From positions 1 to 24,587 of the IMG/VR virus record IMGVR_UViG_3300034683_000033: DNA of 24,587 nt. One strand, 5' to 3'. The notes below the pieces were generated by a model. It was not told where the DNA came from and made no database searches. It saw nothing but the letters and a program-made list of their open reading frames with translations. Below, piece after piece: positions 7,163 to 23,482 of this stretch; within the stretch, counting starts at the first letter, position 1, and each line of letters starts with the position of its first letter. The position numbers and the translations under genes were made by a program. This stretch comes from a virus.

Positions 7163-7305
7163 TTGGTAAAAGCGGGGACGGTTCTATTCATTACAGAGAG
7201 CAATGCCTTGTTGTTTATCCAGATAAAGAAGAAGGATGTGTAGCAACAAGCTACGTTCCTGATTGGCAGGATGTGTTTGCTAACGACTGGATGATAGTGG
7301 AGTAG
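7129..7305 (+). CDS. 58-aa protein with DUF2829/Tad2-like C-terminus
   Basis: An ORF from ATG 7129 to TAG 7303-7305, overlapping the previous gene by 34 nt, encodes 58 residues. The C-terminal half (YVPDWQDVFANDWMIVE) follows the pattern that ends DUF2829 proteins, where a Trp/Pro segment leads into SQxDxLAxDWxxV. That family includes Tad2 proteins, which bind signalling nucleotides to block Thoeris defence. The N-terminal part is shorter than the usual 80-100 aa and does not show the expected start (FGEAxxxLKxGxxxxRxGWNG). It is therefore either a divergent mini-version, a remnant, or unrelated. Its stop codon is the first base pair of the inverted repeat at 7305. Confidence 0.5.
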   Translation: MQSLPGEAKRIIGKSGDGSIHYREQCLVVYPDKEEGCVATSYVPDWQDVFANDWMIVE

Positions 7306-7323
7306 TCGCACGCCATGCGACCA
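7304..7323 (+). promoter_or_regulatory. Inverted repeat, copy A (candidate late-promoter operator)
   Basis: TAGTCGCA, five bases (CGCCA), then TGCGACCA. GTCGCA 7305-7310 is a perfect inverted complement of TGCGAC 7316-7321. The same element with a different spacer lies at 18377-18396, and both are followed by CTATA-nn-GAA. The 3' arm ends exactly 43 nt before a -7-like box in both places. It is probably a dimeric regulator's binding site. It sits at the border of the early and packaging modules. Confidence 0.55.
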
Positions 7324-7332
7324 ACTATACGA

Positions 7333-7376
7333 ATACCGGGTAGTCCTTTAGGGGATTATTCGGTATCTTTATTTTG
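7333..7376 (+). terminator. Strong hairpin with T-rich tail (probable terminator of the early module)
   Basis: The arm ATACCGGGTAGTCC (7333-7346) pairs with GGATTATTCGGTAT (7353-7366) over 14 bp, including three G-U wobbles, with a six-base loop TTTAGG. CTTTATTTTG follows directly. This fits a Rho-independent terminator for transcripts coming from the early genes. The hairpin overlaps the -7-like box, so the same bases may also act in promoter control. The structure is seen; its function is inferred. Confidence 0.55.
7364..7371 (+). promoter_or_regulatory. Bacteroidetes -7-like box TATCTTTA before the packaging module
   Basis: TATCTTTA matches seven of eight positions of the Bacteroidetes -7 consensus TAnnTTTG. 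No good -33 TTTG is found about 20 nt upstream, as expected if an activator bound to the inverted repeat at 7305-7321 replaces it. It would start transcription about 20 nt upstream of ATG 7397. Confidence 0.4.
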
Positions 7377-7396
7377 TGAAAAATAGAGTAAAAGAA

Positions 7397-8818
7397 ATGG
7401 GTATAGTATACAGGAATATCGATGAGCTGAAAAAGCATGAGAATAACCCGCGCACGATAACGAGTGATCAGCTGGAGAGGTTGAAGGAGTCAATAGTTAA
7501 GAATCCGGATTACTTTGAAGCGAGACCTATCGTTGTCTCAAATCGTACGGGTGAGCTGGTTGTGATAGCCGGCAATCAGCGACTAGAGGCAAGCATGCAG
7601 CTAGGTTTGAAGGAAGTACCGACGTATCTGCTTGAGAACTTGACGGAGGAGCGTGAGAGGGAGATAATGATTCGGGATAACGTGAGTAACGGTGAATGGG
7701 ATATGGAGAAACTCATGAGCTGGGACAGCGATACGCTTCTTGACTGGGGAGTAGAGGGGTTGTTTGATGGTTCGGATGATGAACTATTTGCAATAGCAGG
7801 CCCTAGAGATAAGACAAGGGCCGGAAGCCTGATTGATCGTTTTATCATTCCTCCTTTTTCCATACTTGATGCCAAGCAGGGAAGATGGCAGGAGCGTAAA
7901 CGTGCTTGGCTATCTCTAGGTATTAAGAGCGAGGAGGGACGTGAGAGGGAGATTACGTATAACCGTTCGGCACAAAGTCCGGCCATTTATGAGGTACGCA
8001 ACAGAATGCGTGAGAAGCTTGGTTATGATCCCTCTTGGGATGAAATAACGGAATACTGCAAGAAGCATGATATTCCAATGATGGATGGTACCTCTGTCTT
8101 TGATCCAGTTCTTTGTGAGCTTGCATACCGATGGTTTAATGTTCCTGAAGGAGTTATCCTCGACCCGTTCGCCGGAGGTTCCGTTCGTGGGATAGTAGCT
8201 GCAAAATTAGGAATGCGCTATCGAGGAGTTGACTTGCGTCCGGAACAGATTAAAGCAAATTATGAGAATGCGGCAGAAATGCAGCCACCTTTCACGGAGA
8301 ATGACTGTCCGGTTTGGAAGTGTGGTGATAGTCGTGAAATTGATCAGCACTACGCTGGTCTGAAAGCCGACATGATATTTAGCTGCCCGCCTTATGCTGA
8401 TTTGGAGGTTTATTCAGACGATCCGCGTGACTTGTCGAATATGGAATATGAGGAGTTTTTGAACGCTTATAAAACCATAATTCAGAAGAGCTGCTCATTG
8501 CTCAAAGAAAACCGGTTTGCTGTATTTGTAATAGGGGAGGTTCGTGGAAAGAATGGAGCGTATTATAACTTCGTCGGCGATACCATAAACGCTTTTCTTG
8601 AAGCCGGCTTACATTACTACAACGAGATGATTCTTGCTACACAGATAGGTTCTCTGGCCATGCGCGTGACGAATCAGTTCAACCATTCCCGGAAGATAGG
8701 TAAAACGCATCAGAACGTTCTTGTCTTCTTTAAAGGGGACTTAAAACAAATTCCATCGTTATACCCAGAACTAGATTTTAAGGAAGAGGATTTTTTAGAG
8801 AAAGGAGAGAGTGAATAA
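7397..8818 (+). CDS. ParB-like N-terminal domain fused to a phage DNA methyltransferase
   Basis: The frame is open from GTG 7376, but that start lies at the predicted promoter, so I prefer ATG 7397 (473 aa). Residues 1-95 are a ParB/Srx-like domain (KKHENNPRTIT, RPIVVS, VVIAGNQRLEA at about 55-65). Residues about 150-210 contain a segment seen in related phage enzymes (FSILDAKQGRWQERKRAWLSLG). The C-terminal half is a SAM-dependent amino-methyltransferase of the N6A/N4C type with the SAM motif DPFAGGSV at about 256-263 and the catalytic motif SCPPY at about 329-333, a variant of the (S/N/D)PP(Y/W) box. Such enzymes probably methylate phage DNA to escape restriction. No cognate restriction gene is nearby. 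It ends 1 nt before the small terminase start, so it is the first gene of the packaging operon. Confidence 0.88.
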   Translation: MGIVYRNIDELKKHENNPRTITSDQLERLKESIVKNPDYFEARPIVVSNRTGELVVIAGNQRLEASMQLGLKEVPTYLLENLTEEREREIMIRDNVSNGEWDMEKLMSWDSDTLLDWGVEGLFDGSDDELFAIAGPRDKTRAGSLIDRFIIPPFSILDAKQGRWQERKRAWLSLGIKSEEGREREITYNRSAQSPAIYEVRNRMREKLGYDPSWDEITEYCKKHDIPMMDGTSVFDPVLCELAYRWFNVPEGVILDPFAGGSVRGIVAAKLGMRYRGVDLRPEQIKANYENAAEMQPPFTENDCPVWKCGDSREIDQHYAGLKADMIFSCPPYADLEVYSDDPRDLSNMEYEEFLNAYKTIIQKSCSLLKENRFAVFVIGEVRGKNGAYYNFVGDTINAFLEAGLHYYNEMILATQIGSLAMRVTNQFNHSRKIGKTHQNVLVFFKGDLKQIPSLYPELDFKEEDFLEKGESE

Positions 8819-8819
8819 T

Positions 8820-9377
8820 ATGGGTGCACCTAGTGGAAATCAATTTTGGAAATTAAGATCGAAGCACGGAAGAGATAAACTGTTCGCTACGCCTGAGCTT
8901 CTTTGGGAGGCGGCGTGTGAATACTTTCAATGGTGTGACGAAAATCCATGGACGACAAAGAAGGCGATTCAGAAGACGGTTCCCGTGAAACGAAAGGAAG
9001 GCAAGAAGACGAGAATTGTTAACGAGGAACAAACGCAGCGGGAGGTAACACCAACGGCCAGACCGTACTCGCTCACGGGGTTCTGTATCTACGTGGGAGC
9101 GAGCTCAATGTGGTGGCGGAACTTCAAAGAGGGATGCAAGAATAGTACGGATGATAGTACGGATGATAAAGATTTTTTAATGGTCATCGCGCGTATAGAG
9201 GAAACGATCGAGACGCAACAGTTCGAAGGGGCATGTGTTGGCGCGTTCAATGCGAATATCATTGCTCGTAAGTTAGGCCTTTCCGATAAACAGGAATTGG
9301 ATCATACCACGGGAGGAAAAGAGTTCAAAGGCTTTAACTTCTTGCCGTACACGAAGGAGGCTGATGAGGTTGTATGA
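8820..9377 (+). CDS. terS: Terminase small subunit (P22 gp3-like DNA-packaging protein)
   Basis: ATG 8820 has an AAGGAGA Shine-Dalgarno sequence about 11 nt upstream and gives a 185-residue protein; a GTG at 8811 would add three residues. The sequence follows the P22 gp3 family through its length: GAPSGNQFWKLRSKHGR near the start, then LLWEAACEYFQWCDENPW, PYSLTGFCIYVGASSMWW in the middle, and QQFEGACVGAFNANIIARKL. In P22 this protein forms a ring that recognises the pac site and starts headful packaging, so a pac-type mechanism is likely here, and the pac site may lie in this gene. Relative to P22 it has an inserted basic segment (KRKEGKKTR) and a 12-bp tandem duplication. The stop overlaps the large terminase start. 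Confidence 0.88.
   Translation: MGAPSGNQFWKLRSKHGRDKLFATPELLWEAACEYFQWCDENPWTTKKAIQKTVPVKRKEGKKTRIVNEEQTQREVTPTARPYSLTGFCIYVGASSMWWRNFKEGCKNSTDDSTDDKDFLMVIARIEETIETQQFEGACVGAFNANIIARKLGLSDKQELDHTTGGKEFKGFNFLPYTKEADEVV
9144..9167 (+). repeat. In-frame 12-bp tandem duplication in the small terminase gene
   Basis: The unit AGTACGGATGAT occurs twice without change at 9144-9155 and 9156-9167, adding one STDD unit to the protein (NSTDDSTDDKD). Being a multiple of three, it leaves the frame intact. It probably arose by slippage in a surface loop between the WWRNFKEG and FLMVIARIEE helices. Confidence 0.85.
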
Positions 9378-10690
9378 GTGATAAGATCAATATAAAGCAA
9401 CGTAAGGCGTATAACCTGCTTCGGGATGAGGAGCATTTCTTTATCCTGTACGGTGGAGGTGGTGGCGGTGGAAAGTCCTGGCTGGGGAGCGAGTGGCTCA
9501 TGCAGTGCTGTCATAACCTCCCCGGTACGCGTTGGTTTATTGGTCGAAACAATCTTAAGGATTGTCGTGAGTCGGTATCTGTTACCTTCACTAAGGTAGC
9601 GGCAGCTCACGGCTTTAGGGATTATAAGCTCACGAATGACGGGATAGAGTTCGCTAACGGTTCGACGATTGTATTCTTAGACCTCACGTATTATCCGAAA
9701 AAGGATCCTATGTATGAGCGCTTGGGCTCGAAGGAGTATACCGGCGGCTGGATAGAGGAGGCGGGAGAGGTTCACTACTTAGCTTTTGAAGGACTTAAAA
9801 CACGTGTCGGCCGTCACATGAATGATGTGTACGGCGTTCCTCCGAAGATACTTATAACCTGTAACCCGAAAAAGAATTGGCTGTATAAGACGTTTTACAG
9901 GCCATGGAGAGAGGGGAAGCTGAAAGCCCCGTACGCGTTTATTCCGGCTCTGGTGCAGGATAACCCGTACGCAACGAAGGAATACATCGAGATGCTTCGA
10001 AACACGAATGATAATGTGATGAAGCAACGATTGTTTTTCGGTAACTGGGAGTATGATGATGATCCGTCGGCACTTTGTGAGTACGATGCTATCTGTGACG
10101 TTTTCACGAATGAGCATGTATCGCCTACCGGTTTACCGAAGCTCTCCGGTGACCTTGCCATGAAGGGCCGTGATAGGTTTGTGATGGGTAAGGGTGTTGG
10201 CCATGTGTGCACGATACTACTCGTTAAGGAGTACTCACCGGGCAAGATGATTGAGACGGATATGCGCAATGCGATGATTCAGCATCGTGTTTCAAGAAGT
10301 AACGTTGTGGTTGACTCTGATGGGCTGGGCTCGTTCTTGGAATCGTACCTGAACGGTATCAGGGAGTTCCACGGCGGGGAAAGGGCACTATCGAATGAGT
10401 ACGACAACCTGAAAACACAATGCGCGTTCAAGCTGGCTGAGCTGATCAATAAGCGTGACTACCGTATCATCTGTACGCCGGAACAGGAGGAGTTGATAAA
10501 GGAGGAGTTACAGCAGCTTAAACAGGCGAACGTTGACAATGACACGAGGAAAAAGAGTATCGTTTCAAAGGAGATAATGAAAGCGGCGCTGAACCGATCA
10601 CCGGACTTTCTCGACATGCTTATCATGTTGATGTTGTTCGAGATACGTAAACCGATCAGGACAGCAAAGGCGACTTATACGGAGGTTTAA
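9374..10690 (+). CDS. terL: Terminase large subunit (ATPase-nuclease packaging motor)
   Basis: A 438-residue large terminase that pumps DNA into the prohead and cuts it. The ATPase half has a glycine-only Walker A (seven Gly at 27-33, then K34 S35), a Walker B GGWIEEA at 124-130 with the catalytic Glu, and the coupling motif ITCNP at 161-165. The RNase-H-like nuclease half carries the expected acidic residues: Asp260 (LSGDLAMKG), Asp314/316 (VVVDSDGLG) and Asp411/414 (SPDFLDML). The start overlaps the small terminase stop by 4 nt. Length and motif spacing are normal, so it is probably functional. Confidence 0.95.
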   Translation: MSDKINIKQRKAYNLLRDEEHFFILYGGGGGGGKSWLGSEWLMQCCHNLPGTRWFIGRNNLKDCRESVSVTFTKVAAAHGFRDYKLTNDGIEFANGSTIVFLDLTYYPKKDPMYERLGSKEYTGGWIEEAGEVHYLAFEGLKTRVGRHMNDVYGVPPKILITCNPKKNWLYKTFYRPWREGKLKAPYAFIPALVQDNPYATKEYIEMLRNTNDNVMKQRLFFGNWEYDDDPSALCEYDAICDVFTNEHVSPTGLPKLSGDLAMKGRDRFVMGKGVGHVCTILLVKEYSPGKMIETDMRNAMIQHRVSRSNVVVDSDGLGSFLESYLNGIREFHGGERALSNEYDNLKTQCAFKLAELINKRDYRIICTPEQEELIKEELQQLKQANVDNDTRKKSIVSKEIMKAALNRSPDFLDMLIMLMLFEIRKPIRTAKATYTEV

Positions 10691-10727
10691 CTATCAGAAT
10701 GTAATTAATACCAGGAGGAAATGTAAA

Positions 10728-11294
10728 GTGAATAGCAGTGGAGTATTGACGAAAAGACAATATACAACGTTTTTCGAGTTTTGGGTAAAGGCTGGGCATG
10801 GATCAGGTGATACGCTTGATCGGCTGGAAGAAATGCTCAAGCCGGATAAGGTCGGTAAGGTATCTCTTCCGGAGGATCTTAATGATATAACGTTTGGGCA
10901 GTTGATAGAGCTGCAGGGCATAGCGACGAATGAAGAACTGTTCTATGTTCCTTGTGGTGTATTGCTCGGGCTGGACCGGGCAAAGGTTAATGAGTGTCGG
11001 GCCGAGGAAGTGGTTGGATTTGTCACATGGGTTGCTAGGGAGGTGAAGAGGATAAACAAGCTGTTTGAGGCTACTAACGTTAAGCCTACGGCGGAAGAAC
11101 AGCAGGCCGGTATCGATAAACTGTCTTTCGGCCCGTTTGGGCTGATTGACTACTATGCGCTACGGATGGGATTTACCGATCATGACCATGTGTTGTCACT
11201 GCCATGGGTGAGAATATACCAATGTATGATAATTGATTCAGAGAGGGCGAAGTATGAGCGAAGATTACGAAAAATATACGCTGACAAGAAGTAA
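10728..11294 (+). CDS. Conserved Bacteroidales phage structural/assembly protein (tail-chaperone-like, uncertain)
   Basis: A 188-residue protein starting at GTG 10728, with AGGAGG 9 nt upstream at 10713-10718. The ATG at 10721 runs straight into TAA and is not the start. The N-terminus is helical (TKRQYTTFFEFW, TLDRLEEMLK). The C-terminal part, GPFGLIDYYALRMGFTDHDH followed by PWVRIYQCMIID, has the look of tail-assembly chaperones, but I cannot prove this. It is the first gene after the large terminase and precedes neck/tail genes, which fits either a chaperone or a neck protein. It overlaps the next gene by 41 nt in another frame. Confidence 0.55.
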   Translation: MNSSGVLTKRQYTTFFEFWVKAGHGSGDTLDRLEEMLKPDKVGKVSLPEDLNDITFGQLIELQGIATNEELFYVPCGVLLGLDRAKVNECRAEEVVGFVTWVAREVKRINKLFEATNVKPTAEEQQAGIDKLSFGPFGLIDYYALRMGFTDHDHVLSLPWVRIYQCMIIDSERAKYERRLRKIYADKK

Positions 11295-11727
11295 CAGCGT
11301 GGAGAAGAAGATCAAGAGCGTGGCCGAGAGTATGGTCGGCTTCACGTATGTGTATGAGGATTGGACGCGGGCCGATTTACGTTTAGATCGATTGCCTTTG
11401 CCGGCTATCATCAATCTGTTACCGGTAAGCGGGGCGATGTCGCTAAAGATGGACCAGTTTAAGGATAAGCCGAACTGTATGTTCGTGTTTGTCGATAAGG
11501 TAAACAAGGACGCTGATGGGAAAGATAATGACGCGGTATTTGAGAGAATGAAGTCGGCAGCGATGGTTTTTATTGCCCGGATGAATGATAGCGGACTATT
11601 CGATCCTATCGAGGGTGATATTCCGTATTCTGTCATACTGGAGAAGCTATCTCCGATCGTAACGGGAATATCTATCTCGGTACAAGTGAAGGAGGTAAAA
11701 GGAGTTTGTACACGTAATCTCTTATGA
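11254..11727 (+). CDS. Conserved phage neck/tail protein (tail-terminator-like by position)
   Basis: Taking ATG 11254 (MSEDYEKYTL) rather than an upstream ATG at 11233 gives a 157-residue protein. It has mixed alpha/beta character (RLPLPAIINLLPVSG, NCMFVFVDKVN, SAAMVFIARMNDSGLF) and ends in a strand-rich part (VTGISISVQVKEVKGV). I know homologous proteins of unknown function in Bacteroidales phages. The size, the fold hints and the place directly before a tail-completion-like gene suggest a tail terminator/neck protein, but this is inference from position. Confidence 0.5.
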   Translation: MSEDYEKYTLTRSNSVEKKIKSVAESMVGFTYVYEDWTRADLRLDRLPLPAIINLLPVSGAMSLKMDQFKDKPNCMFVFVDKVNKDADGKDNDAVFERMKSAAMVFIARMNDSGLFDPIEGDIPYSVILEKLSPIVTGISISVQVKEVKGVCTRNLL

Positions 11728-11728
11728 T

Positions 11729-12259
11729 ATGAGCAGAGAGAAGGCAAAGGCAATTATCGGTGAGGAGTTGAACGAGTTACGTCGACGTATCATCGAGCAT
11801 CATATTGCAGCGGGACAAAGGGCTTCGGGTAGAACGATTAGTTCTCTGCGTGTAGAGGTGAACGATAGTGCCGGTACGCTATATGGACGCAAAGCATTCG
11901 GTGTACTTGAAACGGGACGAAAGGCCGGTCCGGTTCCTAAAAGTTTTATCGGTGTTATCAGGCAGTGGATTGTAGACAAGGGTATTCCGTATAAACCGAT
12001 TCCTTACGTGCTGGTAGAATCGGAGAGATGGCAGCCGAAATACACACCCGAAGAGAGGGGGTTGATGTCTTTAGCCGGAGCGATAGCGTATAAGATACGC
12101 AATGAGGGCACTTCACTCCATCGCGGGGGAGGACGTGATGATATATACTCGCAGGAGATTCCGGTGACGGTAGGAAATATCATGGATAGGATATTTGCTG
12201 TGATGGAGCAGGACGTGGAACATATAAACTTGAATAGCAATGAAAAAGACAACGATTGA
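11729..12259 (+). CDS. Tail completion/neck protein, HK97 gp10-like
   Basis: A 176-residue protein whose N-terminal helix (KAKAIIGEELNELRRRIIEHH) is followed by a compact beta region with RTISSLRVEV, GTLYGRKAFGVLETGRKAG and VPKSFIGVIRQWIVDKG. This resembles the minor tail/neck proteins grouped with HK97 gp10 and similar tail-completion proteins. It probably joins the head connector to the tail tube. The stop of the preceding gene (TGA 11725-11727) is two bases from this ATG, and its own end overlaps the next gene by 20 nt. Confidence 0.6.
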   Translation: MSREKAKAIIGEELNELRRRIIEHHIAAGQRASGRTISSLRVEVNDSAGTLYGRKAFGVLETGRKAGPVPKSFIGVIRQWIVDKGIPYKPIPYVLVESERWQPKYTPEERGLMSLAGAIAYKIRNEGTSLHRGGGRDDIYSQEIPVTVGNIMDRIFAVMEQDVEHINLNSNEKDND

Positions 12260-13337
12260 TACGACTACGATTGAGTATCCGGAAGAAATAGGCTTTTGTT
12301 TTAATCCGATTGTGGTGAACGTATACGGTCATGCGTGGGCGTATATCGTAGTTACTATAACAGACGTAGCGGCTGGCGTGATATACACGGAGAGGCGTGA
12401 GATGTTTGGTAAGACGTGTTTCTTTGATCTGTCTCCGTACGCACAGGGGGCGTTTGATCTAATTGATCATAAGGTCGATTACACGTCTGCCGGAGTGCAG
12501 GACAGCAAGGTCGGGCGATTGTTTGCCGTAGAAGTGAATCTGTATAATGCAGATGATACGCTGGGTAATAGCTTTTACTTTGAAACGTTCATCATCTGGG
12601 GAGCTATGAAAGTGGGTGAGAGATATAACGGCGAGCGTGTATTGACTTGGTTTAAGAACTTCCCGTTCTCGGTAGGTATGTACAACGCCGCCTCTGCTTC
12701 TGTTACCGTAGCTGTTGATGGCGTGAAACAGGCCGATGCGTTACCACTCCCATCACGGAAGGTGTGGAATCTGATGTTGACGGGACTAGATGCAAAACAG
12801 GATATTACATTCGAGCTACCGGGATCGAGTGATACGGTGAACGTTTGGGATCATACGTTCGATTATACTTTTAGGCCGTTGTTGAATACTCCTTCACGAA
12901 TCACGTGTAAGGTTGACGAAGGTCAGGACGGTGTATATCTGCGCTGGATAAACCGGCATGGATTCTATTGCTATTGGCTTTTTATGCGTGGAGACGAAAC
13001 GAGGCAGGTCACTAACGACGGTGAGTTCATCCGGAACAACATGGCAGATTATAACTATGTCGATGGTTATCACGGAGGAACGGGACGTAAACAACGTAAG
13101 ACGGAAGAGAACACGTTGCCGGTTTGTGCTCCGTTAGTTGATAGTGATACGTATGATTTCCTCTTTCAACTTGCTTTGTCACCGGTAGTGGATATGTATG
13201 CCGGTGATGATGATAACGGTGCTCCGAGATGGAAGGGCGTAAACGTTTCGGTCGCTACGTTTGTGAAGAGTAAGACGAGCCTACAGGATTTTGTTGCAAC
13301 GATTATATTACCCGAAACACGTGTGCAGAGCTTATGA
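12240..13337 (+). CDS. Conserved Bacteroidales phage tail protein (365 aa)
   Basis: A 365-residue mostly beta protein. It has repeated aromatic strands in the N-terminal part (CFNPIVVNVYGHAWAYIVV) and a conserved-looking C-terminal half (YLRWINRHGFYCYWLFMRGD, FIRNNMADYNYVDGYHGG, NTLPVCAPLVDSDTYDFL, LQDFVATIILPE). I recognise the C-terminal pattern from tail proteins of Bacteroidales phages, where they have no detailed function. Because it sits with the next gene directly before the tape measure, I read it as a baseplate/distal-tail component. The start overlaps the neck protein by 20 nt; the stop overlaps the next ATG (ATGA). Confidence 0.6.
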   Translation: MKKTTIDTTTIEYPEEIGFCFNPIVVNVYGHAWAYIVVTITDVAAGVIYTERREMFGKTCFFDLSPYAQGAFDLIDHKVDYTSAGVQDSKVGRLFAVEVNLYNADDTLGNSFYFETFIIWGAMKVGERYNGERVLTWFKNFPFSVGMYNAASASVTVAVDGVKQADALPLPSRKVWNLMLTGLDAKQDITFELPGSSDTVNVWDHTFDYTFRPLLNTPSRITCKVDEGQDGVYLRWINRHGFYCYWLFMRGDETRQVTNDGEFIRNNMADYNYVDGYHGGTGRKQRKTEENTLPVCAPLVDSDTYDFLFQLALSPVVDMYAGDDDNGAPRWKGVNVSVATFVKSKTSLQDFVATIILPETRVQSL

Positions 13338-15241
13338 GAAACGATGAACTATACATTGATGGGCACCTCGTTGATATGGACGACGATACGAAGGTAACGC
13401 TCAACTACAAGAGTAATATATTCACCGACCTAAGCAAGATTGTGAGCAATAACAGCTATACGATCAAATTACCTAATACGGTGCATAATCAGTGTGTGAT
13501 TGATCATGCCGATTTGCCTACGAGGGTGACCGAGTTTCCCCGTATCAGGCATGCAGCGAGGTATATTCGTAACGGGGTTGAGGTGATTAACAAAGCGAAT
13601 GCGGTGTTGATGTCTGTAACGTCAACGTTTGACGTGGCGCTGTCTTGGGGAAATGCTACGGCTTTCGCTCCGATTGTTAATCAGGGGAAGAAACTCACGG
13701 AGTTGACACATGCGCAGGGGGAAGTGTACGAGGGTTCCGATTACGTAGAGTGGAAGAGATGGAGTACTCCCGGATGGCCATACCCGTTTGTTGACTATGG
13801 ATTTCACGACGGTGACGCGCAGGTGTGGTACCATCCGGCTCGAAAAGTGGTATGGGTGATAGAACAGATTGAGAAAGAGTACGGCGTGAAGTTTGAGTTT
13901 CCGGAGAGTAGGAAGACGTTTTTGGATAAGCTATTCGTCCCGTGTCTTAGTCGTAACGATTCAGAAGCGTATGCGAGTAAAAACGCTATCACGTTTAATC
14001 TTAACAGTGTGGTGTACGATGATTATGTATCTCGATACGTGATGTTGTTTGACGTCAACAATGATTCGAACTATTACGGACGTGCCGGTAAGATAGGGCC
14101 ATACAACAACGATAAAACGAATGCCTATACGTCGTTTATCGCTAACGGTAAGCCAAAGATAACGGGGCATGTTGAGGTAGTTTTTGAGCAAATTAAAATG
14201 CCTCCGTCTCCCTCAATACTAGTCTACAAATGGAACACATCTTCATCAGGAGGGAACGTAGATTCGGGTGAGGTGTTAAGTATTGCCGTGAAGGAGATAA
14301 AACCGGTTGATGGAACGACGGATAAATTCAGGGCTGTTTTCGATTTCAAGGATGAAGAAGCTAGTGTTTTGAAGAACATTTATCAGGGTTATTCCAACAT
14401 GAAGTTCTCTTTCGATGGACTTGACATTACGACGGGTGGTGATTTCGTTAATACATGGCGTGCTAGTATTCTGAACGTAACGGGAACGATAACGGTTATG
14501 AACATGGCCGAGGAGATGATTTTAGGCAGTCGGTATTTCTTTATTCCTAATCTTCCGGATATGAAGCAGATTGATTTTATCAAGGCAATAGCTTCTATAC
14601 TTGGTGTTTTCGCTGTACCGGCAGCCGATAACTCGGAACGGATACGCTTTGTTTCGATTGATGACGTGATAGGGAATATTCCCATTGCTGTGGATTGGAC
14701 TAGGAAAGTTGTTGCTTCGTATAAAGACAACAAGCCCGGGGAAATAACATTCACACTTGACGGCTTTGCACAGAGAAATCATTTCCGTTGGAAGGAGGAT
14801 TCAGATGTAACGGGTAGTTATGACGGGGTTGCCGTGGTGGAAGACTTTACCTTGGAGACGGATGCGGATGCTATCACTCTTCCGTTCGCTGCGACTACGA
14901 TGTCGGCAGGAGTGGCAAAGATTCCTTTGTATTCGTACGATAATGATGCGACATTGAATTATACGAGCGCGCAACCGCGTATCTTATTGCTTGATGGGGA
15001 CCGTGGTACTTTTAGCGGATTATCGTGGGGAACATTGCTTTCCCAGCACTATGCAAGCTATCAGAAGATCATCAGGAAACCGGTGATTATTAAAGAAAAG
15101 ATTGAGTTAAGAGAGATTGAATTAAAACGGCTGGATATGACGATACCGGTATATCTGGCTCAATATGGAAAATACTACGCAATAATCTCGGTTAAGGCCG
15201 AGAATACCGGTATATGCGAGTGTCAATTATTACAGTTATAG
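13334..15241 (+). CDS. Large tail/baseplate protein (Tal-like, uncertain)
   Basis: A 635-residue protein rich in beta strands, starting by ATGA overlap. The N-terminus (MRNDELYIDGHLVDMDDDTKVTLNYKSN) introduces a domain found in Bacteroidales phage tail proteins. The middle has further beta modules, including NYYGRAGKIGPYNN, and the C-terminus has FTLDGFAQRNHFRWK followed by a strand-rich end. It pairs with the 365-aa gene before the tape measure, so a baseplate hub or tail-tip role is plausible. I see no protease or glycan-hydrolase catalytic motif. Function is inferred from position only. Confidence 0.55.
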   Translation: MRNDELYIDGHLVDMDDDTKVTLNYKSNIFTDLSKIVSNNSYTIKLPNTVHNQCVIDHADLPTRVTEFPRIRHAARYIRNGVEVINKANAVLMSVTSTFDVALSWGNATAFAPIVNQGKKLTELTHAQGEVYEGSDYVEWKRWSTPGWPYPFVDYGFHDGDAQVWYHPARKVVWVIEQIEKEYGVKFEFPESRKTFLDKLFVPCLSRNDSEAYASKNAITFNLNSVVYDDYVSRYVMLFDVNNDSNYYGRAGKIGPYNNDKTNAYTSFIANGKPKITGHVEVVFEQIKMPPSPSILVYKWNTSSSGGNVDSGEVLSIAVKEIKPVDGTTDKFRAVFDFKDEEASVLKNIYQGYSNMKFSFDGLDITTGGDFVNTWRASILNVTGTITVMNMAEEMILGSRYFFIPNLPDMKQIDFIKAIASILGVFAVPAADNSERIRFVSIDDVIGNIPIAVDWTRKVVASYKDNKPGEITFTLDGFAQRNHFRWKEDSDVTGSYDGVAVVEDFTLETDADAITLPFAATTMSAGVAKIPLYSYDNDATLNYTSAQPRILLLDGDRGTFSGLSWGTLLSQHYASYQKIIRKPVIIKEKIELREIELKRLDMTIPVYLAQYGKYYAIISVKAENTGICECQLLQL

Positions 15242-15245
15242 AACT

Positions 15246-18038
15246 ATGGGACAGGCAGTAGAAGAAAAAGTGTTGGACATTAAAGTCCGTTATGATGATG
15301 CGATACGTGGTATTGCTAAATATCGGTCGGAACTTGATGTTCTTAGGAAAGTTGAAGCAACTCTTAAAGAGGATTTGAAAGAGGGGCGTATAACACGTGA
15401 ACAGTACAATGTAAAGCTGACAGAATCAAAGTTGGCTTCCGGTGAATATAAAGAGGCTATACGTATTTTGGAGAAAGAGATACGGAATAACATCAAGGCG
15501 GAGAATGAACAACTTGGAAGCCTTGTTGCACTGCGCGCCTCTTTATCCAATCTCACTCGGCAGTACGATGAGATGAGTGAGGCGGAGCGAGAATCCGCCT
15601 CGGGGCAGGATTTAGCTATTCATATCAACGCTATCACTGATAAGCTGAAAGGTGCGGAGGAAGCGACTCAGAGATTTTATCGTAACGTCGGGAGCTACGA
15701 AGAGGCGTTTTCTAAGGCACTATCTCCGTTGAAACAGAAACTCGATGATATGACTGAGGCGTATATGAAAATGTCAAAAGAGGAACGTTTGTCAGCTCAA
15801 GGAGAAGAGATGCGGGAACACATGAAGTTAATTGAAAAACAAATAACCGATACGACAGCTTCAGCAGGTCAGTTTCAAAATCAACTGCTCAATATGGTGG
15901 GTATTCAGGGAGGATTGCTTGGCAATATAGCTAACTCGGTAGGTGGAATAAATTCAATGTCACAGGCGTTCATGGCCGGAAAAGCGGCGGTCTCTGCTTT
16001 CGGTAAACAGTTGCTTGCATTGCTGGCCAATCCGATTGTTGCTGTGCTGGCCAGTATCGCTTTAGTGATAATGGGCATTGTCAAGGCTATCAATTCAAGT
16101 GAGGATGCAACGAATAGAGTTAGCGTACTCATGGCTCCGTTTACGCGTTTACTTAATGCTTTGATGTCCATTCTGCAAAAGGGAGTAGGGTTTATTCTTT
16201 CGTTTGTCGAGGCGGGAATGAAAATGTATGATTGGGCAATGAAGATGATGGAAAAGATTCCTTTTGTCGGTGGGGCAATCAAAGAAATAAATAAAGCTAA
16301 TGGCGAGGCTATCGCTTTGGCTAAGGAAAAGATTGCTATTGAGGAACAATCACGTAAGGACGAGGTTGAGAACGCTAAAGCCGCACTTGAAGTGTCGAAG
16401 TACAGAACGCTCGCAAAGGATAAGGAAAAGTACACTGCACAGGAGAGATTGAAGTTTGTTAAGGAAGCGAACAAGCTCGAAGATGAGCAATCTAAACGTA
16501 ACGTTGAGTTGGCCGAACGTAAGTTGAAAGCGTTGCAGATAGAGAGTAGTTGGGCGGAAAATAATGCAGAGACGAACAAAGAATTGGCGAAATTAGAGGC
16601 AGATGTTTATCGTGCCCGAAAGGAGTATTTCGATAAAACGAGAGAGCTTAAAGAACAGGAGAATTCAATTATCAATGAGAATACGGCGGCAGAAAAGGCT
16701 CGATTGGATGCAGCGAAGAATGCGGCAAAAGAAGCAGCTGCTATCGCTAAAGAAAGACGGGACAAGGAACGTGAAGCGGTTCGTGCTGCAGAGGATGCAT
16801 TACTGGCATTGATCAAGGACGGTGTAGAGAAACAGCGTAAAGAAACGATGTTATCATACAGTAGGCAGATAGAGGATTTGAGGACGAAACTTGCTACGGA
16901 AAAGAACTTGACGGTCAATGCGAAAAAGGCCATCAATGAAACGATTCTTGCCCTGGAAAAGAAAAGAGAGCAAGATTTGAAAATGCTCTCCGATGAAGAG
17001 ACTAAACGGCAGATTGAGAATGAACAAAAGCGTATTGAGCTGATGTTGTCGGCTGTGAAGTCGGGATCGGAACAAGAGTTTCAATTGAAATTAGAGTTGA
17101 TGAATAAGCAGATGGAAGCCGAGTTGCAGAATGCGGAGCTGACGGAAAAAGAAAAGGCTTTGATTCGTGAGAAATATCGGGTTCAGGAAGATACGTTGAT
17201 TGATGCACATACGAATGAAGTGAGACAAAAACAGATGGATGCTGTTAAGCTCGACTTTGAAACTAGGATAGCGGAGGCATACGGTAACGAGCAAGCCATA
17301 CTTGAACTTAAAGTACAACAGAAACAGGCAGAACTTGATGCATTACAACAGTTGGAAGGAGAGAGTACAGAGGCGTTTAATCTTCGTAAGTTGAACCTCG
17401 AGAATGAATACCTTGATGCAAAGAAAGCGTTACGTAACAAGGAAGTAGAGATTGAGCAAGCAAAACAGCAATCAATGGCGGATATTACTGATAGCCTTAT
17501 TGGATTAACAGAACAAATAGGAGAGTCGGATAAAGATTTTGCTATGGCATCTAAAGTTCTAGCCCTTGCTCAGATTGCAATTAACACAGGCTTGGCAATA
17601 GCCAAAATGGTTTCTGCTGAATCCGGAAAAGGAATTGTGGGTATAGCTACTATGGCATCCGGTATTGCTGCAATCGTAGCTAATATTGCGGCCGCTACAA
17701 AAACCGTTAAGAGTGCTAAGTTTGCAACGGGAGGTTTGGTTGCCGGCGAGGGTTCAGGTACATCCGATAGCATACCGGCGCAGTTAAGCAACGGTGAATC
17801 CGTTATAACTGCATCGGCAACGTCAATGTTTGCTCCGTTGTTATCAGCATTTAATATGATGGGCGGAGGAGTACCTATCAATATCACGGCGGGAAGCGGG
17901 CAGACGATCGGTGAAGATATGTTGGCACGGGCAGTGGCCAAAGGCTTTATGATGGCACCCGCACCAGTCCTCTCCGTGGAAGAATTTACGAGTGTAGCAA
18001 ATAGGGCAAAATATGTAGAATCTTTGGGTGATATTTAA
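15246..18038 (+). CDS. Tape measure protein
   Basis: A 930-residue tail length-determining protein, the longest in the window. The first 210 residues are coiled-coil-rich and contain two related helical repeats (MSEAERESASGQ at about 110 and MSKEERLSAQGE at about 176). A strongly hydrophobic segment lies at about 254-282 (LLALLANPIVAVLASIALVI). A long charged coiled coil covers about 350-760, and a second Ala/Ile-rich hydrophobic stretch about 770-820. The end has the common motif ATGGLVAGEGSGTSDSIPAQL at about 827, shared by tape measures of many siphophages. By the usual rule of about 0.15 nm per residue the tail would be near 140 nm. It is the last gene before a new promoter-like region. 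Confidence 0.9.
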   Translation: MGQAVEEKVLDIKVRYDDAIRGIAKYRSELDVLRKVEATLKEDLKEGRITREQYNVKLTESKLASGEYKEAIRILEKEIRNNIKAENEQLGSLVALRASLSNLTRQYDEMSEAERESASGQDLAIHINAITDKLKGAEEATQRFYRNVGSYEEAFSKALSPLKQKLDDMTEAYMKMSKEERLSAQGEEMREHMKLIEKQITDTTASAGQFQNQLLNMVGIQGGLLGNIANSVGGINSMSQAFMAGKAAVSAFGKQLLALLANPIVAVLASIALVIMGIVKAINSSEDATNRVSVLMAPFTRLLNALMSILQKGVGFILSFVEAGMKMYDWAMKMMEKIPFVGGAIKEINKANGEAIALAKEKIAIEEQSRKDEVENAKAALEVSKYRTLAKDKEKYTAQERLKFVKEANKLEDEQSKRNVELAERKLKALQIESSWAENNAETNKELAKLEADVYRARKEYFDKTRELKEQENSIINENTAAEKARLDAAKNAAKEAAAIAKERRDKEREAVRAAEDALLALIKDGVEKQRKETMLSYSRQIEDLRTKLATEKNLTVNAKKAINETILALEKKREQDLKMLSDEETKRQIENEQKRIELMLSAVKSGSEQEFQLKLELMNKQMEAELQNAELTEKEKALIREKYRVQEDTLIDAHTNEVRQKQMDAVKLDFETRIAEAYGNEQAILELKVQQKQAELDALQQLEGESTEAFNLRKLNLENEYLDAKKALRNKEVEIEQAKQQSMADITDSLIGLTEQIGESDKDFAMASKVLALAQIAINTGLAIAKMVSAESGKGIVGIATMASGIAAIVANIAAATKTVKSAKFATGGLVAGEGSGTSDSIPAQLSNGESVITASATSMFAPLLSAFNMMGGGVPINITAGSGQTIGEDMLARAVAKGFMMAPAPVLSVEEFTSVANRAKYVESLGDI

Positions 18039-18071
18039 GTCTGAAATGCATGTTTTTATCAATAAATTTAT

Positions 18072-18079
18072 TAACTTTG
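18072..18079 (+). promoter_or_regulatory. Bacteroidetes -7 box TAACTTTG upstream of the helix-turn-helix gene
   Basis: TAACTTTG matches TAnnTTTG completely, in an AT-rich gap between the tape measure stop (18038) and ATG 18100. No clear -33 TTTG lies about 20 nt upstream. Transcription would begin about 15 nt before the start codon, giving the 77-aa gene its own short transcript that ends at the terminator at 18332-18356. Confidence 0.45.
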
Positions 18080-18099
18080 AATCGAATCAAATGTAAATT

Positions 18100-18333
18100 A
18101 TGACGGCATACGAATTACTAGCAACTAACATTTCGACGCTTCGGATTCTCTCCGAGGCGTCAATAGATGTGGGCGATATAAAATACATTGAGATGTACAA
18201 AGAGTACACTCGGCTGGTCTCTGAGGGACACAAAATGACTTATATTGCGTACTATCTTAGTGAAGAATACGGAATGAACAAAGCAACGTTCTATCGGGTA
18301 ATAAAGAAGTTTGGTCAGACGATAGAACTATAG
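18100..18333 (+). CDS. Small helix-turn-helix protein, candidate late regulator
   Basis: A 77-residue protein with a helical N-terminus (YELLATNISTLRILSE, KYIEMYKEYTRLVSEG) and a clear C-terminal helix-turn-helix (MTYIAYYLSEEYGMNKATFYRVIKKF). The HTH resembles the C-terminal DNA-binding part of Mor/C-like phage activators and of small recombinase-type HTHs, though the protein is shorter than Mor (129 aa). It stands alone, with its own promoter-like box and a strong terminator, immediately upstream of inverted-repeat copy B. This makes it a good candidate for the protein that binds the two inverted repeats and switches on morphogenesis. That link is inference; it could instead be an autorepressor or an unrelated accessory factor. 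Confidence 0.6.
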   Translation: MTAYELLATNISTLRILSEASIDVGDIKYIEMYKEYTRLVSEGHKMTYIAYYLSEEYGMNKATFYRVIKKFGQTIEL

Positions 18334-18356
18334 GGGGCTTAAAGCTCCCTTTTTTT
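18332..18356 (+). terminator. Rho-independent terminator after the helix-turn-helix gene
   Basis: AGGGGGC (18332-18338) pairs with GCTCCCT (18344-18350) around the loop TTAAA (one G-U pair), followed by seven T's at 18350-18356. The stem begins inside the stop codon TAG of the 77-aa gene. It should end that gene's transcript before the head module. Confidence 0.85.
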
Positions 18357-18376
18357 GTACCTACTAAAAAAAAGTT

Positions 18377-18396
18377 AGTCGCAAAGAGTGCGACCA
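18377..18396 (+). promoter_or_regulatory. Inverted repeat, copy B (candidate late-promoter operator)
   Basis: TAGTCGCA, five bases (AAGAG), then TGCGACCA. GTCGCA 18378-18383 is a perfect inverted complement of TGCGAC 18389-18394. Copy A at 7304-7323 has the same arms and flanks with an unrelated five-base spacer, so the arms and not the spacer are conserved. Its 3' arm ends exactly 43 nt before the -7 box at 18437, as in copy A. Confidence 0.55.
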
Positions 18397-18436
18397 CTAT
18401 AAAGAAGTAAAATTCGGCTACACGCTTAAAGCTGCC

Positions 18437-18444
18437 TACCTTTG
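18437..18444 (+). promoter_or_regulatory. Bacteroidetes -7 box TACCTTTG before the head module
   Basis: TACCTTTG is a complete match to TAnnTTTG and lies 18 nt upstream of ATG 18462. A weak -33 candidate, TTCG at 18413-18416, lies 20 nt upstream. It is preceded by inverted-repeat copy B at the same distance as in the packaging module. Confidence 0.5.
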
Positions 18445-18461
18445 AGAAAAAAGAAAGGAAA

Positions 18462-19592
18462 ATGGCAGTACTTAAAATCTACAATGACATTGCTGACGAA
18501 GAGAGCAAGAACATGAAGCTCTGGTTTACGGGCGTTGATTCTACTTGCTTCAAAGATATTGATGAGTTCCTGGCTTCCGTTTCGGAAGAAGATAAGACTA
18601 TTGATTTACGACTGAATTGTCGCGGAGGTTCCGTCTCCGAGGGATGGGCTATATATGACAAACTGCGTGATAGCGGGAAGGAGATAGCGGTTACCGTTGA
18701 GGGGATATGTGCTTCAATGGCTACCGTGCTTTTGTTGTCCGCTCCCAAGGGAAAGCGTACGGCGATGCCGAATGCTGAACTACTGATACATGATCCGTAT
18801 ATTCCGGAGTATACGCTGGAGGATGCATACCGAGCGGAGGACTTACGGGCTATTGCTGATAGCTTGGAGGCTGACACAAATAAACTTCTTGACTTGTATG
18901 TAGAACGTACGGGAGCGGATAGAGCGGAGCTGCAGGCGATTATGGATGAGGATAAACGTATGAGCGTGAGCGAAGCGAAGAGGCTTGGATTCATTGATGA
19001 AATAAAAGTGCCGTCAACGGCGAAGGAGAGTAATAATTCTAATTTTAAAAACATGAAAGAGAAAGTAACAGTTGGTAAGGGGTGGTTAGACCGTATCCTT
19101 GCCAAGGCCGGCTATGCGAAGATGGAAGACGTGCCGGAAGTTGTAAACATGGAATTGTCAACGGCCGACGGTGCTACGCTGACAATTGAACGCGAAGAGG
19201 GCGATCCACAGGTCGGTGATGCAGCGAGTCCGGATGGTGAACATGTAATGCCCGACGGTTCGACTATTGTCGTGGCCGGTGGGGTGATTACCGAGATTCG
19301 TCCTGCAGAGGAAGAAGAAGGCGATGAGGACAAGGATGCTCGTATTGCCGAACTCGAGAGACAGTTGGAAGAGGCTAGAGCGCAGGCTAAGTCGCCCAAT
19401 GATCTGAAAATCCTGAATGCTGTAAAGATGGCCGGAGGGGAGAAGTTCTTGGCAAAACATTGTAGCAGCTACAAGGTACAGGGACGCGCACAAACGCAGA
19501 CTCACAAAGAGTTTAACGAGGGTGGTGATGAAAGTCCGTTGGCTAAGGAATTGAGAGAAAGAAGAGAAGGTAAGTACAAAAAAGGTAAGTAA
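18462..19592 (+). CDS. ClpP-like prohead protease fused to scaffold
   Basis: A 376-residue protein. Residues 1-185 form a ClpP-like serine protease with the catalytic triad visible as Ser85 (GICASMAT), His110 (LLIHDPY) and Asp164 (DEDKRMS), plus the characteristic RGGSVSEGWAIYD and AKRLGFIDEI segments. Residues 200-376 look like a scaffold: an acidic stretch (EEEEGDEDKDARIAELERQLEEARAQAK), a coiled coil and a basic end (ERREGKYKKGK). The protease would cleave scaffold during capsid maturation. An in-frame ATG at 19053 (Met198), preceded by an AT-rich leader, could produce scaffold alone, as in lambda C/Nu3. GAAAGG lies a few bases before ATG 18462. It is the first gene of the head module. Confidence 0.88.
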   Translation: MAVLKIYNDIADEESKNMKLWFTGVDSTCFKDIDEFLASVSEEDKTIDLRLNCRGGSVSEGWAIYDKLRDSGKEIAVTVEGICASMATVLLLSAPKGKRTAMPNAELLIHDPYIPEYTLEDAYRAEDLRAIADSLEADTNKLLDLYVERTGADRAELQAIMDEDKRMSVSEAKRLGFIDEIKVPSTAKESNNSNFKNMKEKVTVGKGWLDRILAKAGYAKMEDVPEVVNMELSTADGATLTIEREEGDPQVGDAASPDGEHVMPDGSTIVVAGGVITEIRPAEEEEGDEDKDARIAELERQLEEARAQAKSPNDLKILNAVKMAGGEKFLAKHCSSYKVQGRAQTQTHKEFNEGGDESPLAKELRERREGKYKKGK

Positions 19593-19597
19593 GTATT

Positions 19598-20656
19598 ATG
19601 AATTTCTTTGAGAATTTAACCGTAGACAATCAGGCAGTGAAAGACCTGAAAGAGCTCATCCCTCTGTCTATCATGCAGGATGAAGATTTCAATAAGTACA
19701 TTCACCTGGTTCCGGCAAAGGATGGTGAACGTTTGGGATTTATTGGAGATATGAACGATGTCGGAATAGCCGGCTCTGGTTGTGATCCCGTGTATCAGGA
19801 GGTTGGAGTTGGGAACTCCGAGAAGATATGGTCTCTAGGTGATTGGCAGATTCCTATTAAAATCTGTTACGAGTCGTTGAAGGGTACGATAGCCGAGTAT
19901 TCTCTTAAAACGGGAACAGACATTGCGGACCTTACCTCTACGGAATTCATGAGCTATATTCTACGTCCGGCTCTTGAAACGGCAATGAAGCGTATGATAT
20001 GGCGTTTCGGCTGGTTTGGTGATAAGGCGGCCAGCGATATCACCGGTGGTGGAGTAATCAAAGACGGGGTGAACGTGAATCTGTTTAAAACGTGCGATGG
20101 TTTGTTCAAACGTTTGTTGACACAGATTGCCGCTAATCCGGATCAACGTACGACGATTGCTGCTAATGCACAGGCTACGTTTGCGTTGCAAAAGTCTACT
20201 ATGTTAGTTAAGGGTACGGCGACAGGTCTCATGGATACAATGTTGATGGATGCCGATTCTCGTATTACTGAGGATGCTGGATCGATTGTGTTGATGACTA
20301 AGCTGTTTGCCGATGCGCTGCATCACGATATCAAAGAGAGATTCAACCTACAGCTTAAATGGGAAACAGTCTTCTCAGGGTTTGATGTGGCTGAATACGA
20401 CGGAGTGAGGATCGCTCGTATCTCTATCTGGGATAGATTCATTCGGGCGTATGAGAACGACGGGACGAAGCTCAATAACCCTTATCGAGCGGTGTTCGCT
20501 AATCCTGATCAGTTACTCGTTGGTGCACCTGCCGGTGGACTGATGTCCGATTTGGATATTTGGTTTGAGAAGAAAGAAAGGAGAAACTACATCTACTCTA
20601 CGGGTAAGATGGGTACTCTTATTAAGGAAAACGATATGTTCCATTTTGGAGTGTAA
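19598..20656 (+). CDS. Major capsid protein
   Basis: A 352-residue protein directly after the protease/scaffold gene (5-nt gap), where the major capsid gene is expected. It begins MNFFENLTVDNQAVKDLKEL and has HK97-like mixed alpha/beta character, with GNSEKIWSLGDWQIP and CYESLKGTIAEY early and FVFANPDQ-like segment AVFANPDQLLVGAP late. The end (RNYIYSTGKMGTLIKENDMFHFGV) fits the terminal strands of capsid domains. I base the call on position, length and these patterns; I do not see a cleavage site I can name. Confidence 0.75.
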   Translation: MNFFENLTVDNQAVKDLKELIPLSIMQDEDFNKYIHLVPAKDGERLGFIGDMNDVGIAGSGCDPVYQEVGVGNSEKIWSLGDWQIPIKICYESLKGTIAEYSLKTGTDIADLTSTEFMSYILRPALETAMKRMIWRFGWFGDKAASDITGGGVIKDGVNVNLFKTCDGLFKRLLTQIAANPDQRTTIAANAQATFALQKSTMLVKGTATGLMDTMLMDADSRITEDAGSIVLMTKLFADALHHDIKERFNLQLKWETVFSGFDVAEYDGVRIARISIWDRFIRAYENDGTKLNNPYRAVFANPDQLLVGAPAGGLMSDLDIWFEKKERRNYIYSTGKMGTLIKENDMFHFGV

Positions 20657-20668
20657 GGAGGTAAAGAG

Positions 20669-21262
20669 ATGGGAGCATGTGATAAACTTATAAAGCAAGC
20701 TATCTCGCAGAATTGCGCCAACCCCATAACTAAGGGGTTGGAGGCAAACGGGCTGATAGTGAATAGACAGGATATTGATTTTGCTGCAACGGTCTTTGAT
20801 GCGACAAAAAAGAACGTAATCAAGACGTTGGTTCTCAAGACAGGGAAGCAGGCTTATGAAGTCTTTATTCCGGGTAGCACTCCGTTTACGGGTACAAAAA
20901 CCTCTATGGAAAAGAAAACGTACCAGAACACGTTTACTAACGATGTGTCTCTCGTGGTGCTGGATAATGATCCGACGGTATGTGAAAACGTCATTGACGG
21001 GCTTGCAGGAGGTGAATTCGTATGTATTCTGCGCAACAAGCATAAGGGCGCGGATGGTAGTGCGGAGTATCAGATTTACGGGTACTATCAGGGACTACGA
21101 GCCGAAACGTTGGAGAACGATAAATACTCCGAAGAGACGGAAGGCGGTTGGTCGGCTGCACTCAAGGAGACGAGTGTACCCAAGTCGGCACTGTTCTACT
21201 TCAATACAGATGCTACGACAACGGCTACGCAGTATAACACCCTGTTAACACCTGCCGTATGA
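20669..21262 (+). CDS. Probable major tail (tube) protein
   Basis: A 197-residue beta-rich protein with a strong Shine-Dalgarno sequence (AAGGAGG, about 9 nt before ATG 20669). The middle holds a strand pattern VIKTLVLKTGKQAYEVFIPG. The region EYQIYGYYQGLRAETLEND is reminiscent of tail tube proteins of Bacteroidales phages. Strong translation signals fit an abundant structural protein. Alternatives are a head decoration or minor capsid protein, since it follows the major capsid gene. The stop overlaps the next ATG (ATGA). Confidence 0.5.
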   Translation: MGACDKLIKQAISQNCANPITKGLEANGLIVNRQDIDFAATVFDATKKNVIKTLVLKTGKQAYEVFIPGSTPFTGTKTSMEKKTYQNTFTNDVSLVVLDNDPTVCENVIDGLAGGEFVCILRNKHKGADGSAEYQIYGYYQGLRAETLENDKYSEETEGGWSAALKETSVPKSALFYFNTDATTTATQYNTLLTPAV

Positions 21263-21831
21263 CGTTTGATTCCGCTGTGATATTAATTGATGAGTTGAGA
21301 GCCCGGATTGAAACCGGGTTCTCGAATCAGGACAAAGAAGCTGTCGTATCGCTCTACAAAGAGGTTCTTAATAAAGACTTTGTAAGGACGAGCTGTAGCG
21401 ACTGTTATAAGGACGCGTTTATAGAAATTTATAATTACGTAAAGAAAGAAGGTAAAATGAAAGAGAAATGTAGTTATACGCTTAAAAATGGCGTATTGAT
21501 ACAGGTGTTTGGAACGGGGCAGATGTTCACAAACGATAACCTGACGGATGAAGCTGCGGAGTCGTACTTGAAGCTATACCCTAAGGCGATTAATCAGTTT
21601 GCTCATTATCCAGAGGACTGGGAAGCTCGTGTTACAGGTAAAGCACCCGAGGAAATAACCCTTAATGAGGATCTTGTGATTGAGCTGGCAGGAAAGTTAG
21701 CCGAGGGAGTAACGAAGAAGGCACTTAAAGAAGAGTACAAAGCTTTTGAGATTGACGGCAAGGCGCTGACGGCTCGTACTTTGGACGCTTATCTTAAGGC
21801 TGCCGATGTGTTGAACGCAGAAAATAAGTAA
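21259..21831 (+). CDS. Conserved phage protein between tail-tube-like and portal genes (two-part)
   Basis: A 190-residue protein with two parts. Residues 1-66 are helical with a Cys pair (TSCSDCYKDAFIEIYNYVKK). Residues 67-190 start again at an internal Met (MKEKCSYTLKNGVLIQVFGTG), preceded by AGAAGG at 21447-21452, and continue with NLTDEAAESYLKLYP. Both parts resemble small proteins I know as neighbours in Bacteroidales phages, so the gene may be a fusion or may give a second product from ATG 21457. The second part is reminiscent of a head/neck-associated protein. I do not know its function. Confidence 0.55.
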   Translation: MTFDSAVILIDELRARIETGFSNQDKEAVVSLYKEVLNKDFVRTSCSDCYKDAFIEIYNYVKKEGKMKEKCSYTLKNGVLIQVFGTGQMFTNDNLTDEAAESYLKLYPKAINQFAHYPEDWEARVTGKAPEEITLNEDLVIELAGKLAEGVTKKALKEEYKAFEIDGKALTARTLDAYLKAADVLNAENK

Positions 21832-21834
21832 ACC

Positions 21835-23001: not shown

Positions 23002-23482
23002 CGAAGTGCTGGTCCTATCACGACCGACATCGATTCATCTTAGTGAGGAAGACGTGAATACGTTCATTGATGAGTCGGAACAAATGGAGATTATACCGGC
23101 CATTGGAGCAGATTTGTATCTGAATATACTCGAGGACGAGACCAAACATGAGGTTTTACTTAACGGAGGCAATTATACGGGCGCTGATGGAAAGAAGCGG
23201 ATTTTTAAAGGACTCAAAACGGCATTGGCCTACTACGTTTATGCGAAGATGGTCAAGAATGACGGGCGAATACTCGGAGAAAGCGGCTTTCTGTCTCACA
23301 ATGATGAACATGCAAGCAGGATAGAGGAAAAACAGAAATACGTGAGCTATAATGATGCGCTAAACGTAGCAAGACGGTATCTGTCGGACGTGCTGGAGTA
23401 CTTGAAAAGCACTCAGGAGGGTTTCGATAGGACTGCAAAGGTAAAAAATAACGGAGTTAGATTTATTGCTATTGGAGATTGA
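22979..23482 (+). CDS. Head-tail connector protein (gp6-like)
   Basis: A 167-residue, mostly helical protein with segments typical of HK97 gp6-like head-tail adaptors: LSEEDVNTFIDESEQMEIIPAIG, then LKTALAYYVYAKMVKND and SYNDALNVARRYLSDVLEYL. It would assemble as a ring under the portal. Its ATG lies inside the portal gene's end, and its stop TGA overlaps the next ATG (TGATG), so it is probably translationally coupled to both. Confidence 0.75.
   Translation: MEHLITYSEVLVLSRPTSIHLSEEDVNTFIDESEQMEIIPAIGADLYLNILEDETKHEVLLNGGNYTGADGKKRIFKGLKTALAYYVYAKMVKNDGRILGESGFLSHNDEHASRIEEKQKYVSYNDALNVARRYLSDVLEYLKSTQEGFDRTAKVKNNGVRFIAIGD

Follow-up and report, generated by a model that had tools for sequence, protein, structure and literature searches.

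Inverted repeats at a fixed distance from late promoters of Bacteroidota phages: candidate operators of a small Mor-like activator

The DNA considered here, a 24.6-kb virus fragment (the window, meaning the whole stretch of 24,587 nucleotides) whose relatives are phages of Bacteroides and other Bacteroidota, including the isolated phage BS-TP3, carries the same inverted repeat ahead of two blocks of morphogenesis genes. What are these repeats for? An earlier note on this sequence took them to mark the activator-dependent promoters of a late-gene regulon, with a recombination-prone module boundary offered as an alternative. The literature searched, which takes in few subscription journals, yielded no account of such a late-gene switch in phages of the Bacteroides group.

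Two dyads and their promoters in the window

The window contains two copies of the pattern TAGTCGCA-N5-TGCGACCA and no more, with the spacers being CGCCA in copy 1 and AAGAG in copy 2. The two copies and their unlike spacers had been correctly recognized earlier, although each repeat was taken to begin one base late, the true first bases being 7303 and 18376. Likewise, the offset to the -7-like box is, as claimed, equal in both copies, yet the value of 43 nt was counted from a base two short of the arm end; measured from where the 3' arm stops (7323 and 18396), the offset is 41. The dyad centres, at positions 7313 and 18386, both precede the first T of the box by exactly 51 bp. Within the arms, pairing involves GTCGCA/TGCGAC, outside of which comes one A/C mismatch, while the CTATA-nn-GAA sequence previously said to follow both dyads is only loosely common to them, with copy 1 containing an extra A. 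A scan of the window for the dyad that allowed up to three mismatches returned 2 places, as compared to 0.17 expected in shuffled sequences. A search of Rfam yielded no matches at the gathering threshold. The positions of these and other features are listed in Table 1.

Table 1. Features of the window discussed in the text; all lie on the strand presented.
Feature	Position	Strand	Remark
Dyad copy 1, proposed operator of packaging/tail operon	7303..7323	+	arms GTCGCA/TGCGAC, as in copy 2; centre 51 bp before -7 box
Terminator-like hairpin between operator and -7 box	7332..7366	+	recurs in L087, L088, L097 and L099
-7-like box of packaging/tail promoter, TATCTTTA	7364..7371	+	predicted start near 7376
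Packaging/tail block, Mor-like gene last	7397..18333	+	presumably a single transcript
ParB-methyltransferase fusion	7397-8818	+	packaging/tail block
Small terminase	8811-9377	+	packaging/tail block
Large terminase	9374-10690	+	packaging/tail block
Tail gene, putative tape measure	15246-18038	+	packaging/tail block
Extra -7 box before Mor-like gene, TAACTTTG	18072..18079	+	in window and L087, absent from most relatives
77-residue helix-turn-helix protein, proposed late activator	18100..18333	+	ends just before terminator and copy 2
Intrinsic terminator between Mor-like gene and operator copy 2	18332..18357	+	precedes copy 2
Dyad copy 2, proposed operator of head operon	18376..18396	+	same arms as copy 1
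-7 box of head promoter, TACCTTTG	18437..18444	+	predicted start near 18449
Head block	18462..24587	+	runs to end of window
ClpP-like head maturation protease	18462-19592	+	head block
Putative major capsid protein	19598-20656	+	head block
Portal	21835-23001	+	head block

Bacteroides promoters present TAnnTTTG at -7 and TTTG near -33 (PMC7366714). At copy 2, the box fully matches the -7 consensus of the housekeeping factor sigma-ABfr, while the box at copy 1 is one base off. No TTTG was seen near -33, with enrichment at the late promoters being limited to a degenerate TT located 23-24 bp ahead of the box. The earlier assertion that these promoters contain no good -33 box is thus upheld.

Each copy does indeed open a morphogenesis block, with copy 1 preceding the genes for the ParB-methyltransferase, the terminases and the tail, and copy 2 preceding those for the protease, the capsid and the portal. 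The ParB-like domain that is fused to a DNA methyltransferase at 7397-8818 is encoded together with the latter by two separate neighbouring genes in BS-TP3. The gene order across 18462-23001, namely, protease, putative capsid, two unknown genes and portal, with the terminase and tail genes found upstream, is unusual. Upstream of the late region, the genes at 3711-6036 are placed where PcfK-like and PcfJ-like genes are annotated in BS-TP3.

Both late promoters are also accompanied by terminator-like elements. The hairpin at copy 1 comprises 15 bp and has a T-rich tail that overlaps the -7 box. In the four relatives where this hairpin recurs, changes in the 5' arm preserve pairing, mostly by wobble; covariation is weak, amounting to one two-sided change in 5 sequences, with all 65 pair cells being kept. 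A scan of viral contigs with the 15-base hairpin arm returned mostly chance matches and, otherwise, known relatives alone. It seems that such terminators commonly serve to insulate the late operons from upstream reading.

The same geometry with other arms in related phages

The distribution of such dyads was considered in regions upstream of homologous head-protease genes drawn from viral contigs (50 non-redundant regions). No arm sequence was assumed; rather, perfect dyads with arms of at least 5 bases and a spacer of 3-9 were placed relative to TAnnTTTG. In 31 of the 50 regions, a head-operon dyad was centred 51-52.5 bp before the TAnnTTTG box, whereas dinucleotide shuffles averaged 0.8 such regions and never exceeded 4. 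No other offset between 20 and 120 was used by more than three regions. One of the 31 dyads, that of L179, is probably a chance match, while several of the remaining 19 regions contain an imperfect dyad at the same place, such as ACTGCCA-N5-TGTCAGT in L099. The arms differ by lineage and include GTCGCA, ACTGACA (CTGACA), ACTATCA (CTATCA), GGTTCA, TGCCA, TTGTCCGC and TGAAC, among others. The fixed spacing to the box, which the earlier note had asked to see checked in other phages, was found at 51 bp in all seven of the other loci, from related phages or prophages, that match the window's own dyad pattern.

Apart from the window, GTCGCA dyads are confined, among 30 related records, to G001 and G002, where they are found at both late promoters. 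The two late promoters share TGACA-type dyads in G003 and in G004, while in G005 both have the asymmetric CTGCCA/TGTCAG; in the CTATCA group, the head site alone was seen in the records examined. Two sites with the same arms in one genome are, therefore, seen in three arm classes only. When the arms served as probes, a third site was revealed in each of G002 (box at 52 bp), G005 (51 bp) and G006 (51 bp). The genes downstream are holin and DUF5675 genes in G002 and an amidase gene in G005, while in G006 a GH108 lysozyme gene follows at a distance of about 1.3 kb, such that two fuller relatives, and possibly three, have a third site ahead of lysis genes. Sites with a genome's own arms had the box at 51 in eight of eight cases; for matches to out-of-class arms, that is, in genomes with different arms of their own, the box lay at 50-53 in none of six.

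The exact 16-base pattern was considered as a diagnostic sequence and rejected, given how most matches in public contigs are due to chance. Indeed, outside the related phages it occurs at about chance level, with 9 of 14 matches in viral contigs and 66 of 68 in genome contigs being to unrelated sequences. Judged by sequence, it is the pattern together with the 51-bp geometry that is diagnostic, and not the 16 bases by themselves.

Certain relatives depart from this arrangement. Upstream of the head protease in L242-L245, TGCA-type repeats lie near the usual dyad position with no clear inverted repeat; the L243 and L244 records nonetheless encode the helix-turn-helix protein described below (with Arg62), which counts against the proposal made here. 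At the head and terminase promoters of hankyphage p00 (L188), no dyad is seen at 51-52. A single 7/7 dyad (ACTGCAA-GACGC-TTGCAGT) is found in hankyphage at 40929-40947, 52 bp before TATCTTTA, where the Mor-like gene of that phage ends and ahead of the thymidylate synthase gene; the hankyphage protein has Arg at the position of residue 62, and the arm of its dyad has G4.

A small helix-turn-helix protein that covaries with the dyad arms

The last gene of the packaging/tail block encodes a 77-residue protein, modelled by AlphaFold as five helices with a helix-turn-helix at residues 46-71 (pLDDT 95.7). Homologous genes adjoin the head dyad in many relatives and lie elsewhere in some larger genomes. 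In BS-TP3-like phages, unrelated sequence (about 7 kb in L191) separates the Mor-like gene from the head promoter, ending directly before an intact dyad in both L191, where it finishes in a T-run, and L085 (BS-TP3, after 23651). The protein and a convincing dyad are absent together from five records of 24-84 kb, including the 23.7-kb record L198. In L198, the head protease of which is 83% identical to that of the window, no dyad is present upstream of position 906 and no Mor-like gene anywhere in the record, and another promoter must, therefore, serve its head block. A promoter of its own for the activator gene was rejected as a general rule, since this gene usually either overlaps its upstream neighbour or begins shortly after it, as is the case in most relatives.

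In Pfam, the window protein did not match the Mor/C family (PF08765) at E<=1, while 15 of 23 relatives matched below the family cut-off, the best at 23.9 bits versus 24.9. A search by sequence for a match among solved structures did not find Mor, and Foldseek with the predicted structure gave no match at E<=0.001, with Mor listed at E 6.4 only. Direct comparison with structure 1rr7 gave a Z score of 3.7 over 46 residues, tied with unrelated helix-turn-helix proteins, such that structure comparisons revealed no clear relative. Alignment to Mor or C involves helix-turn-helix residues 50-73 only, and a mixed Mor-like alignment was unusable for scanning contigs, as no stretch was conserved enough. 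Because the likeness is confined to the helix-turn-helix and falls below the Pfam cut-off, the protein is described here as Mor-like in its presumed action, rather than as a proven member of the Mor/C family.

The relation between protein and dyad was considered by calculating the mutual information between protein alignment columns and the six arm positions across 27 non-redundant loci. The top pair joins residue 62 to arm base 4, followed by 61-4, 62-3 and 66-2, with residues 61, 62 and 66 all sitting in the predicted recognition helix. Arg62 accompanies G4, and other residues accompany C, A or T, a rule that holds at all 29 loci. When mapped on a tree built from the head protease, which is an independent gene, each trait requires four changes and these coincide, with the 3-4 independent contrasts all agreeing. 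A sign test on so few contrasts cannot reach significance, such that it is the pattern as a whole that carries the case. Where records with TG-type arms were later found to encode the protein, it again has Arg62, two of these records (L225 and L237) having already been part of the fit.

A proposed late-gene switch and its alternatives

The reading that best accounts for these observations is that the dyads are operators of one dimeric phage activator, most likely the 77-residue protein, by which the late genes would be switched on; we place the probability of this at about 80%. The late-gene regulon with activator-type promoters put forward in the earlier note thus stands as the best reading, drawing on a conserved geometry with co-changing arms, a helix-turn-helix protein that can be named and third sites at lysis genes. 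The note had overlooked the terminator-like hairpin inside the copy 1 promoter and the likely regulator gene beside copy 2. A dimer of the protein would bind the dyad, centred 51 bp before a Bacteroidota -7 box and about 63 bp before the presumed start, i.e., in a class-I-like position, and would recruit host RNA polymerase to promoters without a good -33 box. Copy 1 would turn on the packaging/tail genes, copy 2 the head genes and, in two to three fuller relatives, a third copy the lysis genes, with terminators insulating each late promoter from upstream reading. Dimer binding, activation as opposed to repression, the contact with polymerase, the starts and the timing are all inferred. The position of the activator gene at the end of an operon that it is proposed to switch on counts against this scheme.

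Class I activators such as CRP at the lac promoter have dyads whose centres precede the start by about 61-63 bp. The distance is the same here, although the protein is phage-encoded and unrelated, any contact with the alpha subunit being hypothetical. Another parallel is phage Mu, where the mor and C genes each directly precede a terminator and a promoter activated by their own product. At a promoter lacking a -35 element, Mor recognizes a 5-6-5 dyad with its centre at -43.5 (PMC4390567). As at Mu Pm, a small phage helix-turn-helix protein is here paired with inverted repeats, which in Mu are two of 5 bp with a 5-6 bp spacer (PMC4390567), at a promoter where the -10/-7 box is good but the -35/-33 element is not, and the proposed activator gene lies directly before a terminator and then the target promoter. 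In these terms, the dyads of the relatives, with short arms (those of Mor being 5 bp) and a spacer of 5 or 6 at promoters lacking a good -35/-33 element, are of the Mor/C type. Unlike Mor, of 129 residues, the window protein has 77, with the likeness limited to the helix-turn-helix; its dyad is centred about -63 from the presumed start, about two helical turns further upstream, and its proposed targets are packaging, tail, head and lysis genes rather than a middle operon. Mu C, which acts on the lys, I, P and mom promoters (PMC4461284), offers a parallel for one activator serving several late promoters, and its gene too lies before a terminator and a late promoter. C, however, has 140 residues, is alike in the helix-turn-helix only, and binds next to -35 rather than far upstream.

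Were the Mor-like protein or another phage regulator instead to bind the dyads and repress the late promoters until released, the same geometry and covariation would be expected, dyadic operators being common for repressors. Yet the site does not cover the -7 box but is situated about 50 bp ahead of it, the late promoters contain no good -33 box, and the gene is found at the end of a late block, like those of the activators in Mu. Repression is, as such, considered unlikely.

Less probable still is that the dyads act as RNA hairpins, either in nut- or put-like antitermination, the elements of which lie inside their own transcripts, or as terminators. The arms could pair as RNA and the packaging dyad of BS-TP3 belongs to a 15-bp stem with a T-run after it. 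However, the dyads are upstream of the -7 box, at a fixed distance, and copy 2 follows an intrinsic terminator and is thus unlikely to be transcribed. The sense strand of the window arms includes an A/C mismatch, and there is covariation between the arm bases and the DNA-recognition helix of a helix-turn-helix protein. This same covariation, concentrated in the recognition helix of a phage protein, together with the joint absence of protein and dyad, renders it comparably improbable that the dyads bind a host regulator, as might be imagined given that the protein gene is inside the late region and the first trigger is left open; moreover, the arms differ among related phages, unlike the sites of one conserved host factor.

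That the dyads are nothing but recombination-prone module boundaries is scarcely credible, for although relatives that share 99-100% identity with the window downstream of copy 1 bear no relation to it on the other side, with similarity beginning exactly at the dyad, the 51-bp spacing is fixed while the arms change, which a recombination site does not need, and in the nearest relative copy 2 is conserved on both sides. The boundary suggested earlier is, therefore, real at copy 1 as a similarity edge. Since near-identical relatives diverge just upstream, this dyad also bounds an exchanged block, and the most fitting view is of a promoter module that begins, on its 5' side, with the dyad. The head dyad of L191, intact at the point where unrelated sequence stops, fits such a module too.

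Returning to the proposed activator, the same switch, rewritten in many letters at a fixed promoter distance, most likely recurs across Bacteroidota phages. At a broader level, and with even odds of being correct, these proteins could represent a distinct family of mini-activators in Bacteroidota phages, of about 77 residues and like Mor/C at the helix-turn-helix level only, that act in class-I-like manner on promoters with a -7 box only, and the operators of which have been repeatedly re-coded as residues 61, 62 and 66 of the recognition helix changed in pairs with arm bases 2-4; at some packaging promoters, the T-rich tail of a terminator would double as the -7 box. A candidate regulator, exact operator positions, a proposed regulon comprising packaging/tail, head and, in some relatives, lysis genes, and predicted starts are now available. 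The diverged pairs of operator and protein may offer a specificity code for a very small activator, as well as candidate orthogonal inducible promoters for gut Bacteroides. If the broader reading holds true, such phages would provide a readable protein-DNA code and natural orthogonal switches.
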